This document shows, in pieces, positions 5,297 through 16,407 of a DNA stretch of 23,391 nt. This DNA comes from a virus, in IMG/VR virus record IMGVR_UViG_3300028393_000344, positions 1 to 23,391 of that record; one strand, 5' to 3'. The notes below the pieces were generated by a model. The model saw nothing but the letters and a program-made list of their open reading frames with translations, was not told the origin of the DNA and did not search any database. Position 1 is the stretch's first letter. Every line of letters begins with the position of its first letter. A program made the translations under genes and the position numbers.

Positions 5297-5658
5297 CCAA
5301 AGCATGTGATTTTGTAGGGATGCTGTTCCTAGCGCGCGATGTGGCGCACAGCGTCCACTTGAACACCCGCAGCTACGCCAAACACGTAGCCCTGAACATC
5401 TTTTACGATCGTATTGTGGGCGCTGCTGACGATTTTGCCGAAGCCTATCAAGGCCGGCACGGTATGATCGGCCCGATATCGCTTATGTCAGCCAAGAAAA
5501 CGACCAACATCATTGAGTTTTTGGAAGATCAATTGAAAGAAATTGAGTCAATTCGGTATGATGTGTGCGACAAGTCCGATTCTTCGTTGCAACAGCTTAT
5601 TGACAACATCGTCGAAATATACCTTCGCACGCTCTACAAACTACGCTTTTTAGCTTGA
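5293..5658 (+). CDS. DUF5856-like phage protein, possibly ferritin-like fold
   Basis: A 121-residue, mainly helical protein. The stretch LARDVAHSVHLNTRSYAKHV followed by ALNIFYDRIVGAADDFAEAY and QGRHG is characteristic of a phage family that I recall as DUF5856. The alternating His/Glu/Asp positions in the first two helices resemble a four-helix, Dps/ferritin-like bundle, but metal binding is not demonstrated. The start is GTG, overlapping the portal stop by four bases (GTGA). The role is unknown. Its place just after the portal suggests a virion or head-assembly accessory. Confidence 0.75.
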   Translation: MTKACDFVGMLFLARDVAHSVHLNTRSYAKHVALNIFYDRIVGAADDFAEAYQGRHGMIGPISLMSAKKTTNIIEFLEDQLKEIESIRYDVCDKSDSSLQQLIDNIVEIYLRTLYKLRFLA

Positions 5659-5666
5659 GGTAAACC

Positions 5667-5939
5667 ATGTCAGCCACATACAAGAATATCAGCGCCACTA
5701 ACCAGGTCAAAATCGGGTTTACGGTGCTTAAGGGCATTTTTGTGAGCGCCGCGTCGGCCACGCCGACAATCACGGTATACGATTCCGGCACCGCGAGTAA
5801 CAGTGACCCTACGATTTTGAGCGTGTTTACGCCCACCGCTGCGACCAACTACAATTTTACCGCGATGGGCATCTCGGCAAGCAAAGGGCTATACGTGGTC
5901 ATATCCGGAACGGTAGCCGCTACATTTATCTATGAGTAA
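5667..5939 (+). CDS. Small beta-rich virion protein (unknown)
   Basis: A 90-residue protein, MSATYKNISATNQVKIGFTV through SKGLYVVISGTVAATFIYE, rich in Val/Thr/Ser/Ile in alternation as expected for a beta-sandwich. Proteins of this type (GIFVSAAS... ITVYDSGTAS...) recur in phage structural regions, but I know of no assigned role. The start is supported by GAGG seven bases upstream. It opens the host-recognition cassette that follows, so it may be a small fibre-associated or head-surface protein. There is no signal peptide and no membrane segment. Confidence 0.72.
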   Translation: MSATYKNISATNQVKIGFTVLKGIFVSAASATPTITVYDSGTASNSDPTILSVFTPTAATNYNFTAMGISASKGLYVVISGTVAATFIYE

Positions 5940-5945
5940 GCAAAG

Positions 5946-6827
5946 ATGACCGTCGGTCTTTCCCCAGTTGCTGGCGCGGGTTGGCAGTTTTTTGATTCCA
6001 ACGGCGTGCCCTTGTCCGGCGGCAGGTTGTATACCTATGCCGCAGGCACTACGACGCCGCAAACTACGTACACCAGTAGCACCGGCGCAACCGCTAATGC
6101 GAACCCGATTGAATTGGATTCGGCGGGGCGTGTTTCCGGCACCACCGAAGTTTGGCTAGATATCACCGTCGCATACAAATTTGTATTGAAAACCACCGAC
6201 GATGTTCAGTTGTGGAGTGCCGACGATATTTCCGGCATGGCGGGTATTGGTAACCCCCTGCCTGTTCCGTCAGGCGGCACTGGACGTGCAACGGCTACGG
6301 CCTATGCGGTGATATGCGGCGGCACTACGGCCACGGGGGCACTGCAATCCATAGCCTCGGTAGGCACTACGGGGCAAGTGTTGACCAGCAACGGCGTCGG
6401 TGCTTTGCCGACCATGCAAGCCAGTTTTGTCGCCGGCATGATTATTCTGTGGTCTGGAAGTGTCTTGGCTATCCCGACCGGTTGGCTGTTGTGCGACGGC
6501 ACCTTAAGCACACCAAACCTTCGGGATCGGTTTGTCGTAGGCGCCGGTTCCACCTACGCCGTAAACGCAACGGGCGGCACTGCCGACGCGGTTGTTGTTA
6601 CTCACACCCACGTAGCCACAGACGCGGGGCACACGCACACCACCACGGCCTTTGGTGCTGCCGGCACGGCGCTCGCTGGCGGTGCGGGAAGTAACACCGC
6701 GTCGGGCGCGCTTACGTCAAGCACCGGTTTTGCAAGCGTCACTAACGCAGTTCCGGTTGGAAGCGTTAGCGGCACAAACCAAAACCTTCCGCCGTATTAC
6801 GCCCTTTGCTACATTATGAAGTCCTAA
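5946..6827 (+). CDS. Tail fibre with collar domain and HxH motifs
   Basis: Likely host-binding fibre of 293 residues. Residues ~10-65 (AGWQFFDSNGVPLSGGRLYT, TTTPQTTYT, ELDSAGRV) form the head-proximal attachment module found in many podovirus fibres and tailspikes. PSGGTG (108-113) marks a linker. From ~162 comes a phage-collar/T4 gp12-like receptor domain: GMIILWSGSVLAIPTGWLLC, then TPNLRDRFVVGAG. Paired HxH motifs at His220/222 and His229/231 resemble metal-coordinating sites that lie along the trimer axis in T4 short and long fibre tips. The ending LPPYYALCYIMK is characteristic of this fold. Trimer formation is inferred from the family. Confidence 0.85.
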   Translation: MTVGLSPVAGAGWQFFDSNGVPLSGGRLYTYAAGTTTPQTTYTSSTGATANANPIELDSAGRVSGTTEVWLDITVAYKFVLKTTDDVQLWSADDISGMAGIGNPLPVPSGGTGRATATAYAVICGGTTATGALQSIASVGTTGQVLTSNGVGALPTMQASFVAGMIILWSGSVLAIPTGWLLCDGTLSTPNLRDRFVVGAGSTYAVNATGGTADAVVVTHTHVATDAGHTHTTTAFGAAGTALAGGAGSNTASGALTSSTGFASVTNAVPVGSVSGTNQNLPPYYALCYIMKS

Positions 6828-6833
6828 AAAATT

Positions 6834-7829
6834 ATGGCTAACGTAAAAATTTCATCGCTCGCCGCCGCCACTACACCGCTAACAGGCGCAGAGGTATTGC
6901 CCATTGTTCAATCTGGCGTAACCGTTAATGTTGCGGTAAGCAATTTGACCGCAGGTAGATCGGTTAGCTCTACAGCTATAGCAATAACGGGCAGCACGTC
7001 CGGCACGGCGACGATTGTAACGCCTGCGGTGGCCGGCACGCCGACGCTGACGTTGCCAATCACTACGGATACGCTGGTCGGCAAGGCAACGACAGATACG
7101 CTAACGAACAAGACGTTGACCGCGCCGATCATAGCAACCATTTCAAACACGGGCGTGTTGACCTTGCCGACCGCTACCGACACCTTGGTAGGCCGGGCTA
7201 CGACAGACACTCTGACGAACAAAACGCTAGTCGCTCCGATACTTGGAACCCCAACAAGCGGCGTATTGACAAACGCCACCGGGCTTCCGCTTTCTACCGG
7301 TGTCACCGGAACCCTGCCGGCAAATAACGGCGGGACAGGTGTAGCTAACAACGTAGCAAGCACACTTACTATATCGGGTAGCTTTGCCAGCACGTTTGTA
7401 GTGGGTGGGGCTTTCTCATACACCTTGCCTAGTGCTTCAGACACTATAGTTAACTTGGGGTCTACGCAGACCCTGACAGCCAAGACGCTGACAAATCCTA
7501 CTGTTACCAATTACGTTGAAACTCTGCAAGCAGTAGGCACTGTCGGTGCGTCGTCTACTCTGGCACTGACTACCGGAACTGTTCTTACGGCTACGCTCAC
7601 AGCATCAACTCCTTGCACATTCACGATGCCAACCGCTGGGGCTGGTAAGTCGTTCATACTTATCTTGACGCAAGCCGCTACGGGTATGACTACGGCGACG
7701 TTTACGGGCGTTAAATACCCCGGCGGCACTGCGCCAACTATTACTGCTACCGCTTCGGCGGTGGATATTCTAAGTTTTGTAGCTAACGGCACGGTCTGGT
7801 ATGGCACCTTTGCCCAGGCGTTTGCATAA
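6834..7829 (+). CDS. Repeat-bearing tail fibre protein
   Basis: A 331-residue Thr/Val/Ala/Gly-rich protein typical of phage fibre shafts. It has two near-identical units with [18 protein letters not shown] (residues ~74-100 and ~111-137, 37 residues apart) and a third degenerate copy (198-224, with [18 protein letters not shown]). NGGTG (165-169) is the usual fibre linker motif. The C-terminal ~90 residues form a separate beta domain containing [19 protein letters not shown] and ending [11 protein letters not shown]. There is no recognisable ribosome-binding site before ATG 6834, only six bases after the previous stop, so translation is probably coupled. Receptor binding is inferred; no enzymatic motif is seen. 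Confidence 0.82.
7053..7244 (+). repeat. Direct repeat pair coding TDTLVG...TLTNKTL units in fibre gene
   Basis: Two 27-codon units (7053-7133 and 7164-7244), 111 bases apart, encode almost the same peptide. A third degenerate copy lies at about 7425-7505. The DNA copies differ at many third positions, so the peptide repeat is old and kept by selection on the fibre shaft; it is not a recent duplication. Confidence 0.75.
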
Positions 7830-9361
7830 TGTTTGCTGCGCCTAATTTTTTCCTTACCAAAATTGCGGGTGGTTTTCTAATCATCCAGCAGTTCACTGCG
7901 TCTGGAACGTGGGTAGCGCCTACGGGGGTGACGAAGGTTGATTACCTTGTTGTTGCGGGGGGTTCTGCTGGCGGTTATAACGGCGGCGGTGGCGGCGCTG
8001 GTGGATTTAGAACCGCAACAGCTTTTTCCGTTACCGCGGGAAATTCATATACAGTAACAGTAGGCGCAGGAGGCACCGGAAGCACAACCAGAACAATCAC
8101 TGGCGGTGCGGGTTCAAATTCAGTGTTTTCGACCATTACCGCAAACGGTGGCGGCGGCGGCGCTGCCGATCTTCTCACTGGCGGCGCGGGGGCAAGTGGC
8201 GGTTCTGGTGGCGGCGGTGCTAATTCAACCGGAACAGGCGGCGCAGGTAATACACCATCAACAAGCCCATCGCAGGGAAATAACGGCGGCGCAGCGGCGG
8301 CAGGAACATCGCAAACCGGTGGCGGCGGCGGCGCTAGTGCGGTTGGCGGCACTGCAACATCATCTGTTGGCGGTGCTGGCGGCAACGGAACGGCAAGCAG
8401 CATTAGCGGATCATCAGTTACTTATGCTGGCGGTGGTGGTGGTTATGTTGACAACACCGGCAGCGGCGGCGTTGCGGGTTCTGGCGGTGGTGGCACAGGC
8501 GGCAAGGGCAATACCACAGATGGAACTGTCGGCACCGTAAATACGGGCGGCGGTGGTGGTGGCAGTGGTTTTACGGGCGGTAAGAACGGCGGTTCAGGCA
8601 TCGTAATCCTGTCCTTCACCGCGCCTAGCAAAATTGCCGTATTCAATATGTCCGGTATCTGGACTGCTCCGGCTGGCGTGACAAGCGTGAATTATCTTGT
8701 TGTGGCGGGTGGCGGTGGTGGCGGTGGTAGTTTTGGTGGGGTCGGAGGTGGTGGTGCGGGTGGATTCCGTACTGCGACGGGTCTTGCGGTAACGCCGGGT
8801 TCCGACTACACAGTAACGATTGGCGCGGGTGGTAGCGGCGGCGTGAGTGCGGTCGGAACTGTTGGTTCATCCTCTGTTTTTTCAAGCATTACTTCTGCCG
8901 GTGGCGGCTACGGCGGCGCTTACGTTGGGTCGGCGCTTAATGGCGGTGCTGGCGGTAGCGGCGGTGGTGGCGGTAGCGTCGGCGCAACAAATGCGACCGG
9001 AGGTGCAGCTAGCCCGTCCGGGCAAGGAAATGCCGGTGGTAACGGATTTGGCACAGCCATCGTATCAGCCGGTGGCGGCGGTGGTGGCGCAACTCAAGCA
9101 GGAAACGTGGGTGGAAATGGAATAGGCGGAAATGGCACAGCGTCGTCATTAAGTGGCTCCTCGGTTACGTATGCTGGCGGTGGCGGTGGCGTTAGTGATA
9201 ATCCTGTAACTGGCTACGCTGGAGGTTCTGGCGGTGGTGGTGCGGGTAACGGTGCTGGCACTGGAACTGCTGGAACTACTAATACTGGCGGTGGCGGTGG
9301 CGGCGGCAGGTCAACCACGGGCGGCGCTGGCGGTTCAGGCATAGTAATCATCACATGGTAA
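7829..9361 (+). CDS. Glycine-rich receptor-binding adhesin, internally duplicated
   Basis: A 510-residue protein dominated by GGGGG and GGAGG runs. Two homologous units are visible. Unit 1 (21-263) starts FTASGTWVAPTGVTKVDYLV and ends GGSGIVILSF. Unit 2 (270-510) starts FNMSGIWTAPAGVTSVNYLV and ends GGSGIVIITW. Both carry GGFRTAT, SGSSVTYAGGGGG and NTGGGGGG at matching offsets of about 250 residues. Phage adhesins with polyglycine lattices, such as gp38 of T4-like phage S16, bind host outer-membrane proteins; by analogy this one sits at the tip of the tail apparatus. The ATG overlaps the previous stop (TAATG). A structural role on the virion is likely; the receptor is unknown. Confidence 0.85.
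   Translation: MFAAPNFFLTKIAGGFLIIQQFTASGTWVAPTGVTKVDYLVVAGGSAGGYNGGGGGAGGFRTATAFSVTAGNSYTVTVGAGGTGSTTRTITGGAGSNSVFSTITANGGGGGAADLLTGGAGASGGSGGGGANSTGTGGAGNTPSTSPSQGNNGGAAAAGTSQTGGGGGASAVGGTATSSVGGAGGNGTASSISGSSVTYAGGGGGYVDNTGSGGVAGSGGGGTGGKGNTTDGTVGTVNTGGGGGGSGFTGGKNGGSGIVILSFTAPSKIAVFNMSGIWTAPAGVTSVNYLVVAGGGGGGGSFGGVGGGGAGGFRTATGLAVTPGSDYTVTIGAGGSGGVSAVGTVGSSSVFSSITSAGGGYGGAYVGSALNGGAGGSGGGGGSVGATNATGGAASPSGQGNAGGNGFGTAIVSAGGGGGGATQAGNVGGNGIGGNGTASSLSGSSVTYAGGGGGVSDNPVTGYAGGSGGGGAGNGAGTGTAGTTNTGGGGGGGRSTTGGAGGSGIVIITW
7889..9358 (+). repeat. Two tandem glycine-rich units within the adhesin gene
   Basis: Unit 1 (about 7889-8617) and unit 2 (about 8636-9358) code for homologous glycine-rich domains with matching start and end motifs and the same internal landmark order. 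GGC/GGT-rich runs are dense throughout both, making the region prone to recombination between units. Confidence 0.8.
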
Positions 9362-9585
9362 AAATATATCAACTCTACGGCATTGATACTGCAATGCAAC
9401 TGCTGCGGCCTAATGCGCGTTGGGAGATCAGCAACAACGTGATTACTAGGTGGGAAGATTACAGAGAAAAGCCGACTTGGGAAGAAATACAGGAAACAAT
9501 GGATAAGATAAAAGCGTTTGAGGATTCCATACCTACCGTTTGGTCACCGGCACAGATTAAAGAATACACAGGACAGGAAAAATAA
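9355..9585 (+). CDS. XkdW-like small tail-associated protein
   Basis: A 76-residue protein, with MQLLRPNARWEISNNVITRW then KPTWEEIQETMDKIKAFEDS. The 'LLRPNA-W ... W-D ... PTWEEI' layout resembles small proteins such as XkdW that accompany phage tail adhesins, possibly as assembly chaperones. That role is inferred. It overlaps the adhesin gene by seven bases and is followed by a coupled gene (TAATG), which ties it to adhesin production. No membrane segment or secretion signal is visible. Confidence 0.75.
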   Translation: MVKIYQLYGIDTAMQLLRPNARWEISNNVITRWEDYREKPTWEEIQETMDKIKAFEDSIPTVWSPAQIKEYTGQEK

Positions 9586-9941
9586 TGGCGCACTTTGCTA
9601 AAGTAGAAAACGGCGTGGTCACTCAAGTGATCGTGGTCGGCAATGCGGATACCGCAAACGCAGAAGGCGTTGAGCTTGAGCATATAGGCGCTGCGTTCTG
9701 TGAGCGTTTGCTGGGCGGTGACTGGAAGCAGACTAGCTACAACGGCAACATCCGCAAGAACTACGCGGGTATCGGCTACACCTTTGATGAAGCACGGGAC
9801 GCTTTCATTGCGCCAACTCCGTATCCGTCGTGGTCGTTGAACGAGCAAACTTGCCGATGGGAATCTCCCACCCCGATGCCTACTGATGGCAAAATGTATG
9901 CGTGGGATGAAGCCACACTGAATTGGATTGAACGTAAATAA
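9585..9941 (+). CDS. Conserved phage protein found beside tail fibres
   Basis: A 118-residue protein beginning MAHFAKVENGVVTQVIVVGN, with WKQTSYNGNIRKNYAGIGYT in the middle, then APTPYPSWSLNEQTCRWESP and DGKMYAWDEATLNW at the end. I recognise this as a family common in aquatic phages, especially cyanophages, where it lies among structural genes. Aromatic-rich PYPSW and W-E-x-P motifs suggest a small compact domain. The function is unknown; a virion or assembly-helper role is suggested by position. The start overlaps the previous stop and has AGGA upstream. Confidence 0.8.
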   Translation: MAHFAKVENGVVTQVIVVGNADTANAEGVELEHIGAAFCERLLGGDWKQTSYNGNIRKNYAGIGYTFDEARDAFIAPTPYPSWSLNEQTCRWESPTPMPTDGKMYAWDEATLNWIERK

Positions 9942-15640: not shown

Positions 15641-15976
15641 ATGACCGTTACCGTAAAAGTGCTGATACCCGCCAAGACTGCCGAGTCGATCCAGACCACG
15701 CAGTATACGGCGTCGAACGTCACCACAATTATAGACAAGTTCACCGCCACCAACTACAGTGCCAGCCCGGCGGCGTTGAGCGTCAATATAGTCACCTCGG
15801 GCGACACGACGGGCAACCAGAACCTGATTACCAAGACCAAGACGCTAGCGGCTGCGGAGGTATATACTTTCCCTGAGATTGTCGGCCAGGTGCTGGTAGC
15901 CGGCGGGTTTATCTCCACCATCGCGGGTGCGGCCAGCGCGATCAACATTCGCGCTTCAGGGCGGGAGGTGTCGTAG
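15641..15976 (+). CDS. Small beta-rich virion protein
   Basis: A 111-residue protein, MTVTVKVLIPAKTAESIQTT through SAINIRASGREVS. Alternating Val/Thr/Ile/Ala with FTATNYSASPAALSVNIV suggests an immunoglobulin-like beta sandwich, a fold frequent in small capsid or tail decoration proteins. No specific function is known to me. It is three bases after the previous gene, with its stop overlapping the next GTG (TAGTG), so it belongs to the tail operon. Confidence 0.74.
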   Translation: MTVTVKVLIPAKTAESIQTTQYTASNVTTIIDKFTATNYSASPAALSVNIVTSGDTTGNQNLITKTKTLAAAEVYTFPEIVGQVLVAGGFISTIAGAASAINIRASGREVS

Positions 15977-16407
15977 TGGAAGCCGTAGCCAAACATGACG
16001 GTATGCAACAGCGCGTAGAAAAACTACAGTTTGAGGTTTCAAAGCTGCCGCAATACGAACCGCAAACAAAACATACTTTTCACGGGGGCATGTATTGCCG
16101 TGAAGTTTGGCGACCGGCGGGCGTTTTAGTTATTGGAAAAGTTCATAAAAAAGAACATTTTTACGTCGTCATGTATGGCACGGTAAGCGTAACAACGGAT
16201 GACGGTGTGCGGAGTATTACAGGCCCTTGCGTATTGAGCAGTATGCCCGGAACAAAACGCGCCGTGTATGCCGAAACAGATGCCCTTTGCGTAACCTTCC
16301 ATCGCACGGATTCAGCTACCATTGAGGACGCCGAAACGGAATTGGTAGAAACCGACCCAAATACAATGTATTTGGCAGGAAATACTGTTAAAGGAGTTTT
16401 ACCATGA
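15976..16407 (+). CDS. Cupin-fold phage protein
   Basis: A 143-residue protein with a single cupin-like barrel: TFHGGMYCREVWRPAGVLVI, then GKVHKKEHFYVVMYGTVSVT (residues 54-73), and a late strand with VTFHR. His57, Glu60, His61 and His109 are the plausible metal ligands, arranged like cupin motifs 1 and 2 though spaced H-x3-H rather than H-x-H. Such cupins occur in phage structural cassettes, as I recall, but no substrate is known. It sits between tail and ejection genes, with a GTG start overlapping the previous stop and an ATGA overlap at its end. Enzyme and purely structural roles are both possible. Confidence 0.8.
   Translation: MEAVAKHDGMQQRVEKLQFEVSKLPQYEPQTKHTFHGGMYCREVWRPAGVLVIGKVHKKEHFYVVMYGTVSVTTDDGVRSITGPCVLSSMPGTKRAVYAETDALCVTFHRTDSATIEDAETELVETDPNTMYLAGNTVKGVLP

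Follow-up and report, generated by a model that had tools for sequence, protein, structure and literature searches.

We consider it likely that the gene at positions 7829-9361 of the virus record IMGVR_UViG_3300028393_000344 encodes a two-unit adhesin at the tip of a tail fiber, which would be docked there by a short N-terminal tag, carry exchangeable unit interiors and be served by a small chaperone. The stretch analyzed, hereafter the window, covers 23,391 nucleotides (nt) of this record and comes from a phage with a P22-like portal. With somewhat less confidence, we favor a wider reading in which such tips are of a plug-in type: a constant tag would carry unrelated heads, one to four polyglycine units would trade interiors in any position, and the family phrog_7759 would be their dedicated chaperone.

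The initial annotation described one gene with two homologous glycine-rich domains of about 245 residues in tandem, and our analysis agrees with this. The two units, of 247 and 242 amino acids (aa), are identical at 141 of 236 aligned residues (60%), and both belong to the Pfam family Gly_rich_2 (PF21722), which matches in two stretches (163.2 bits, E 1.2e-47; the cut-off is 24.3 bits). Their alignment score of 631 exceeds the scores of 200 full shuffles (mean 253, maximum 301) and of 200 shuffles in which every glycine was kept in place (mean 344, maximum 396). A recent internal duplication of the window gene was rejected because the units are 58% identical at nucleotide level and use the same codon at just 54 of the 141 shared residues. 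Additionally, the two interiors are 57% (0.570) identical, and units of different genes average 57.1% (0.571). The two copies are therefore old or of separate origin.

The tandem had been set beside known single-domain adhesins, but among its relatives such an arrangement is not unusual. Our survey comprises 367 sources (366 loci, numbered with the prefix L, and the window); the loci were fetched mostly with the adhesin or its parts, and the survey is not a census. It contains 475 Gly-rich open reading frames (ORFs) in 316 clusters. The 276 intact clusters divide into 163 with a single unit, 96 with two, 12 with three, 4 with four and one without a full unit; 112 of the 276 thus carry 2-4 units. 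The linker at the unit junction is at most 15 aa long in 102 of 132 junctions, and two-unit forms are also found in DSL-LC04, whose record gives a host in the Gammaproteobacteria, and in Bellamy and HTVC033P, whose hosts are likewise named. GenBank records label some Gly-rich genes 'baseplate wedge protein gp6' (L081:16418-17266; L373:3949-4986; L374:4037-4984 and 5361-6290), which looks like a misannotation. Single-unit proteins (L027, L029, L061-L065 and other loci) have a conserved C-terminal tail of about 35 aa, STTGSP...GGYRVYKWTGSGSITF. A circular permutation relating these single-unit proteins to the tandem units was suggested by eye but gained no support from a position-weight test, in which 1 of 110 such tails beats its own 50 shuffles.

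The structure prediction supports an ordered adhesin. An AlphaFold2 model built with an alignment of 26 sequences (A1) has a mean predicted local distance difference test (pLDDT) score of 88.3, falls below 50 at residues 1-12 and 144-146 only, and contains no helix of four or more residues. The predicted fold is of the lattice type, and the disorder that the initial annotation had named as a refutation is not predicted. The best match of the model in the Protein Data Bank (PDB) by Foldseek is the fiber of cyanophage Pam3 (E 8.6e-5), and VIA-align places this fiber (7ypx_A) on unit 2 with Z 16.3, a root-mean-square deviation (rmsd) of 2.2 and 32% identity over 174 aligned residues. The Bxb1 tail tip (9d93_Qb) follows at Z 15.3, and ALK/LTK reach about 7-8.5. 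At E up to 0.001, the model also matches 228 predicted viral proteins. S16 gp38 had been given as an example of a single-domain polyglycine adhesin. However, the nearest solved fold among the matches is a TNF-like domain combined with a glycine-rich one, as in Pam3 gp24, Bxb1 and more weakly ALK/LTK, and not the beta-helix type of gp38. S16 gp38 (6F45) is absent from the 38 Foldseek matches and from the VIA-align list, an absence that does not exclude likeness. In searches of the PDB by sequence, Pam3 appeared at E 0.13-0.14 in the profile search; monobodies made up most of the matches in the phmmer and profile searches (best E 0.002 and 0.0096) and were rejected as chance matches of composition. 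A tblastn search among phages gave no match to the adhesin, probably because of its low-complexity filter, and a genome search missed the family even in the window; neither result speaks for absence.

The adhesin gene directly follows a fiber gene, and its ATG shares the last base of the fiber stop codon (7829). A search with the fiber gene alone gave 98 plus-strand relatives that include a stop codon; in 97 of these, the ORF ends with the match to the fiber C-terminus. We propose that the last 110 aa or so of the fiber form a docking platform for the tip protein. A Gly-rich gene comes next after 17 of 38 non-redundant fiber ORFs from the loci found in this search. The next gene starts with M[FL][AGS][AST], mostly MFAA-NFF or a near form, at 51 of 61 non-redundant fiber ends; where several starts were possible the one fitting the motif was taken, which favors this count. 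For comparison (by Fisher test), the tag pattern occurs anywhere in the first 60 frame residues of 71 of 1927 ORFs. The heads behind the tag are of Gly-rich, RCC1, laminin-G, DUF7483 and propeller types, and because the tag is constant whatever head comes after it, the tag probably docks the head onto the fiber. At one locus (L328:5312-7582), the first of the two Gly-rich units of an adhesin apparently contains an inserted laminin-G lectin domain, as though a lattice loop displayed it.

Downstream of the adhesin lies a 118-aa protein of the family phrog_7759, which we infer to be the chaperone of the Gly-rich head. Its model (pLDDT 95.7) has no helix after residue 43, and its top Foldseek match is 7YPX chain a (E 0.11, probability 0.93). 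Residues 3-60 of this chain are also the sole match with Z of at least 2 among 151 chains aligned (Z 5.3, rmsd 2.7, 58 residues). We take the 162-residue chain to be Pam3 gp25 from its length and from the description of gp25 as Met1-Phe162 (PMC9608196). Gp25 is reported as the fiber chaperone and partner of gp24 (PMC9608196), and gp24 is the best structural match of the adhesin. No Pfam family matched the 118-aa protein at E up to 1, and thus no curated Tfa-family match was found.

The 118-aa family is closely linked to Gly-rich heads. Behind the fiber type of the window, a member is encoded no more than 1.5 kb downstream of 29 of the 30 testable Gly-rich heads (14 of 15 singles and 15 of 15 doubles, one of which, L321, rests on a wrongly picked ORF) and of none of 13 testable other genes, 10 of them tagged. 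These counts leave aside 17 cut or short cases and L308, which has a weakly Gly-rich head without the partner. Conversely, 24 phage records matched by the 118-aa protein were examined for a Gly-rich ORF upstream: one lies within 100 nt in 17 records and within 3 kb in 23, and for the remaining record just 1.7 kb of upstream DNA was covered. The family phrog_7759 is present in 41 phage records from cyanophages, pelagiphages and others, mostly named 'hypothetical protein'. The cultured phages Melnitz-1 (L391) and Melnitz-3 (L379) are nearly the same on either side of a segment in which they differ, with identities of 99.8% (6.7 kb) and 99.4% (1.1 kb). Behind an N-terminus common to both, Melnitz-1 encodes a Gly-rich head and then a homologue of the 118-aa type, and Melnitz-3 has a different head and no such homologue there. 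Such tight linkage would be equally compatible with a component of the virion tip, i.e., a cap or second adhesin, and the lack of the gp25 trimerization domain fits this possibility. We nevertheless consider a virion component the less probable role, with an appreciable chance of being right, as the sole solved structural match is the fiber-binding domain of a chaperone. Genes named 2OG-Fe(II) oxygenase, or in some of these phages 'leprecan' or ferrochelatase, also adjoin Gly-rich genes at L367, L380, L381, L383, L384, L385, L387, L388 and L390.

A 76-aa protein encoded between the adhesin and the putative chaperone is found mainly with doubles. Behind the window fiber type, a hand count gave 15 of 17 uncut doubles and 2 of 16 uncut singles. 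Over all testable clusters, the protein is encoded in the 1.5 kb after 26 of 72 doubles, 4 of 14 genes with at least three units and 1 of 130 singles. L137 and L152 have a single unit and have kept the 76-aa protein, and their unit starts like a second unit; both look like doubles that lost unit 1.

The differences between units had been placed mostly in the glycine loops. Across relatives, an excess outside the framework is indeed seen: in 23 of the 26 rows of A1 (three partial rows were dropped), mean pairwise identity is 0.59 in beta-strand columns, 0.81 in Gly-consensus columns and 0.34 in the others, with 0.02, 0.05 and 0.14 inserted residues per site, respectively. The Gly class is conserved by definition and the fair contrast is strand against other, for which all 487 slid masks gave a smaller difference. 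However, our comparisons indicate that the variation arises mainly by replacement of whole unit interiors, not by drift in individual loops. The interior statistics were first computed on 90% cluster representatives, in which near-identical genes are lost, and were repeated on 78 distinct alleles of 117 intact short-linker doubles; 1731 pairs were left out because they lack a usable stretch of 150 nt downstream. Downstream flanks are at least 80% identical in 87 allele pairs, which are not independent as alleles recur; of their 174 interiors, 159 are at most 0.70 identical, none lie in 0.70-0.85 and 15 are at 0.85 or above. The interiors of unrelated pairs average 0.575 (standard deviation 0.030). 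In 64 pairs of cluster representatives, interior identity is not correlated with that of the flank (rho 0.006, p 0.96).

The window shows the same alternation when compared with L001, with 90-95% identity from 7743 to 7922 (fiber end, tag and first seam), about 40-65% in both interiors, 80-83% at the middle seam, and 88-97% from the last seam through the 76-aa gene. Exactly one unit is replaced in 3 of the 87 pairs, always unit 2, and neither in 6. In L059 and L232, the flanks are 97.4% identical over 4.1 kb and 1.5 kb and unit 1 is 98% identical, with unit 2 at 65%; identity drops 28 residues into unit 2 and returns 10 residues before its end. L047 and L048 behave likewise, with boundaries at 25 and 10-11 residues, and L021 (two units) differs from L152 (one unit) between similar outer seams. 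Near-copies are also found in other positions. Unit 1 of L168 is 83% identical to unit 2 of L191 (60-62% for the other three unit pairs), and unit 1 of L014 is 82% identical to the only unit of L063 and 81% identical to unit 2 of L002. Among 454 units of cluster representatives, 21 between-cluster pairs are at least 75% identical, nine of them in different positions or architectures; two of the 21 are one protein and its cut copy. In a unit tree, which was used as a lead only, units 1 and 2 do not form two clades, with 89 of 156 inner branches open. Collectively, the conserved tag, unit ends and neighbors around differing interiors, the single-unit differences and the near-copies in the other position indicate that unit interiors are exchanged as cassettes between conserved seams. 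A repeat search of the window found repeats only within the two units and no inverted repeat of at least 24 nt, and thus nothing in this fragment supports inversion of the shufflon type.

A tandem was initially suggested either to present two receptor surfaces or to lengthen the tip. Our results favor two different surfaces over a mere change of length, because three phage pairs replace one unit and keep the other and because the window units are as unlike as units of different genes; a longer tip may still accompany this. The second unit could instead be mainly a spacer, with one unit alone binding the host. Chains of one to four units (163, 96, 12 and 4 of 276) would be expected if unit number sets length, and as all three one-unit replacements changed unit 2, unit 1 is left as a possible spacer. 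However, the interiors of both units turn over nearly alike (mean nucleotide identity 0.62 and 0.59 in 64 related pairs), which a pure spacer would not need, and we regard the spacer as unlikely. It is more doubtful still that the replacements are metagenome assembly chimeras joined at conserved seams. Nearly all compared tandem alleles come from IMG/VR contigs, but the pattern extends across 87 allele pairs with graded flank identities, and a comparable exchange of a head and its partner (a whole head, not a unit) is seen in the complete genomes of the cultured Melnitz-1 and Melnitz-3. Least probable of all is that the interiors diverge rapidly by point mutation, either under selection or through a targeted mutator. 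The tips are most variable and most interiors have reached saturation, which fits this view. However, the identities fall into two groups with a gap from 0.70 to 0.85 and do not follow those of the flanks, and near-copies of units occur in other positions and in single-unit proteins.

Several results weigh against the overall reading of a docked two-unit adhesin with traded interiors and a chaperone. TNF-like units are described as trimeric in Pam3 (PMC9608196), while the adhesin has two units per chain. The likeness of the 118-aa protein to gp25 is modest, with 58 residues aligned at Z 5.3 and a Foldseek E of 0.11, and, unlike gp25, the protein is without a C-terminal helical trimerization domain. 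One Gly-rich head (L327) lacks the 118-aa neighbor, and in four cyanophage records (L378 and L381-L383) the nearest Gly-rich gene in the DNA examined is 2.8 kb off. Family-wide, units of the same gene are slightly closer (0.594) than units of different genes (0.571; p 8e-8), and therefore some true duplication or conversion may also occur within the family. Finally, the doubles were mostly drawn from metagenome contigs, in which chimeric assembly at conserved seams is possible.

The window carries a P22-like portal (phrog_156, 1.6e-126) and a head-closure protein (phrog_578), and the tail cassette (Table 1) sits between the portal and coat genes. The nearest named genomes by DNA are MW202483 (73% nt identity over 10% of the query) and Phage DSL-LC05 (79% over 5%), whose record labels the corresponding genes as gp10-like DNA stabilization protein and coat protein. 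A single-unit gene occupies the slot of the adhesin in MW202483. In DSL-LC05 the slot holds a tailspike behind an N-terminal adaptor similar to that of the window fiber; the N-terminus of the fiber resembles the gene just before this tailspike when the translations are compared by eye. A scan of genome contigs gave one distant locus and no host. Elsewhere in the window, a 143-aa protein (15976-16407) matches the PHROG annotations short tail fiber protein (1.2e-36) and tail fiber adhesin (4.8e-28), and may be a second tail-tip or receptor-binding protein.

Table 1. Features of the putative tip cassette in the window.
Feature	Position	Strand	Description
Fiber gene	6834..7829	+	331 aa; weak PHROG tail-fiber match
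Tandem polyglycine tip adhesin (probable)	7829..9361	+	510 aa, ATG to stop, two Gly_rich_2 units
Proposed docking tag	7829..7864	+	residues 1-12; monomer-model pLDDT under 50
Unit 1	7880..8620	+	residues 18-264, 247 aa, 86 Gly
Seam A	7880..7957	+	first 26 residues of unit 1; 95% nt identity to L001 (interior 57%)
Unit 1 interior	7958..8584	+	putative exchanged cassette: polyglycine lattice and tips
Seam B	8585..8710	+	unit 1 end, linker, first 26 residues of unit 2; nt identity 81% to L001, 90-93% to L014, L186 and L006
Unit 2	8633..9358	+	residues 269-510, 242 aa, 93 Gly
Unit 2 interior	8711..9328	+	putative exchanged cassette
Seam C	9329..9358	+	last 10 residues of unit 2 (GGSGIVIITW); L001 identity high again onward into next genes
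76-aa protein	9355..9585	+	phrog_21526 (unknown function)
118-aa protein	9585..9941	+	phrog_7759 (unknown function); proposed chaperone or partner of Gly-rich head

From these results, the following mechanism can be proposed. The N-terminal tag would dock the adhesin on the C-terminal end of the upstream fiber. Each unit is predicted to form a TNF-like beta-sandwich whose glycine-rich strands extend as a packed polyglycine lattice, and the variable tips of the lattice would touch the host surface. The 118-aa protein might bind a unit and aid its folding, as gp25 does for gp24 in Pam3. Interiors appear to be replaced as whole cassettes, presumably by recombination via the conserved unit ends, in either position and sometimes singly. 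Two units could then provide two surfaces that are exchanged independently, and would lengthen the tip as well. If this is true, related phages would swap the glycine-rich domains like cartridges, and the grip of the phage could be changed without rebuilding the fiber. Host-range change in uncultured aquatic phages would also become readable from sequence, by comparing two relatives and naming the exchanged unit. Additionally, phrog_7759 gains a testable role, and tip docking by a 12-residue tag becomes a testable idea.

The adhesin shares features with several known systems. In S16, the tip gene gp38 lies directly after the fiber gene. A separate tip gene directly after the fiber gene is also found in the window and in its relatives. 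Like the gp38 proteins of S16 (PMC6851490) and PP01 (PMC12892980), described as polyglycine lattices and in S16 as set on a beta-helix, the adhesin would be a separate tip protein that caps the fiber with a polyglycine lattice and variable loops. However, gp38 is described with a three-helix attachment domain, a beta-helix and a polyglycine sandwich of 10 motifs in three layers, with one lattice per chain. The attachment domain with its conserved Trp was not found in the adhesin, which has no helix, and no Trp before unit 1. The fold also matches the polyglycine-rich domains of the Bxb1 tail tip (PDB 9D93), which a later preprint remarks on (PMC13252515), although this structure is a siphovirus tip from a mycobacteriophage. 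The match to the extracellular glycine-rich (TG) domains of ALK/LTK is partial, and no functional relation to these animal receptor kinases is implied; a likeness of gp24 to ALK is already in print (PMC9608196).

The closest system is Pam3 gp24 (PDB 7YPX), in which the strands of a TNF-like domain extend into 12 glycine-rich motifs in four layers, and diversity rises toward the distal tip, where the receptor site is proposed (PMC9608196). The modeled units of the adhesin share this domain fold, and a small gene nearby encodes a protein whose model has a modest match to the fiber-binding domain of gp25. As described, gp24 has a single unit and a long N-terminal helical domain that trimerizes and docks to the baseplate, whereas the adhesin has two units, a tag of about 12 residues and no helix in its model. 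Because this N-terminal domain was not found, we do not file the adhesin as a gp24 despite its gp24-like domains. Our literature search, with subscription papers outside its reach, returned neither a tandem polyglycine adhesin nor a function for phrog_7759, which is no proof of novelty. As described, the polyglycine adhesins of S16, PP01 and Pam3 have one lattice per chain (PMC6851490; PMC12892980; PMC9608196). Here, the same kind of fold appears to be used in series, and the relatives show which pieces are constant (the tag, the unit ends and the neighbors) and which are traded.

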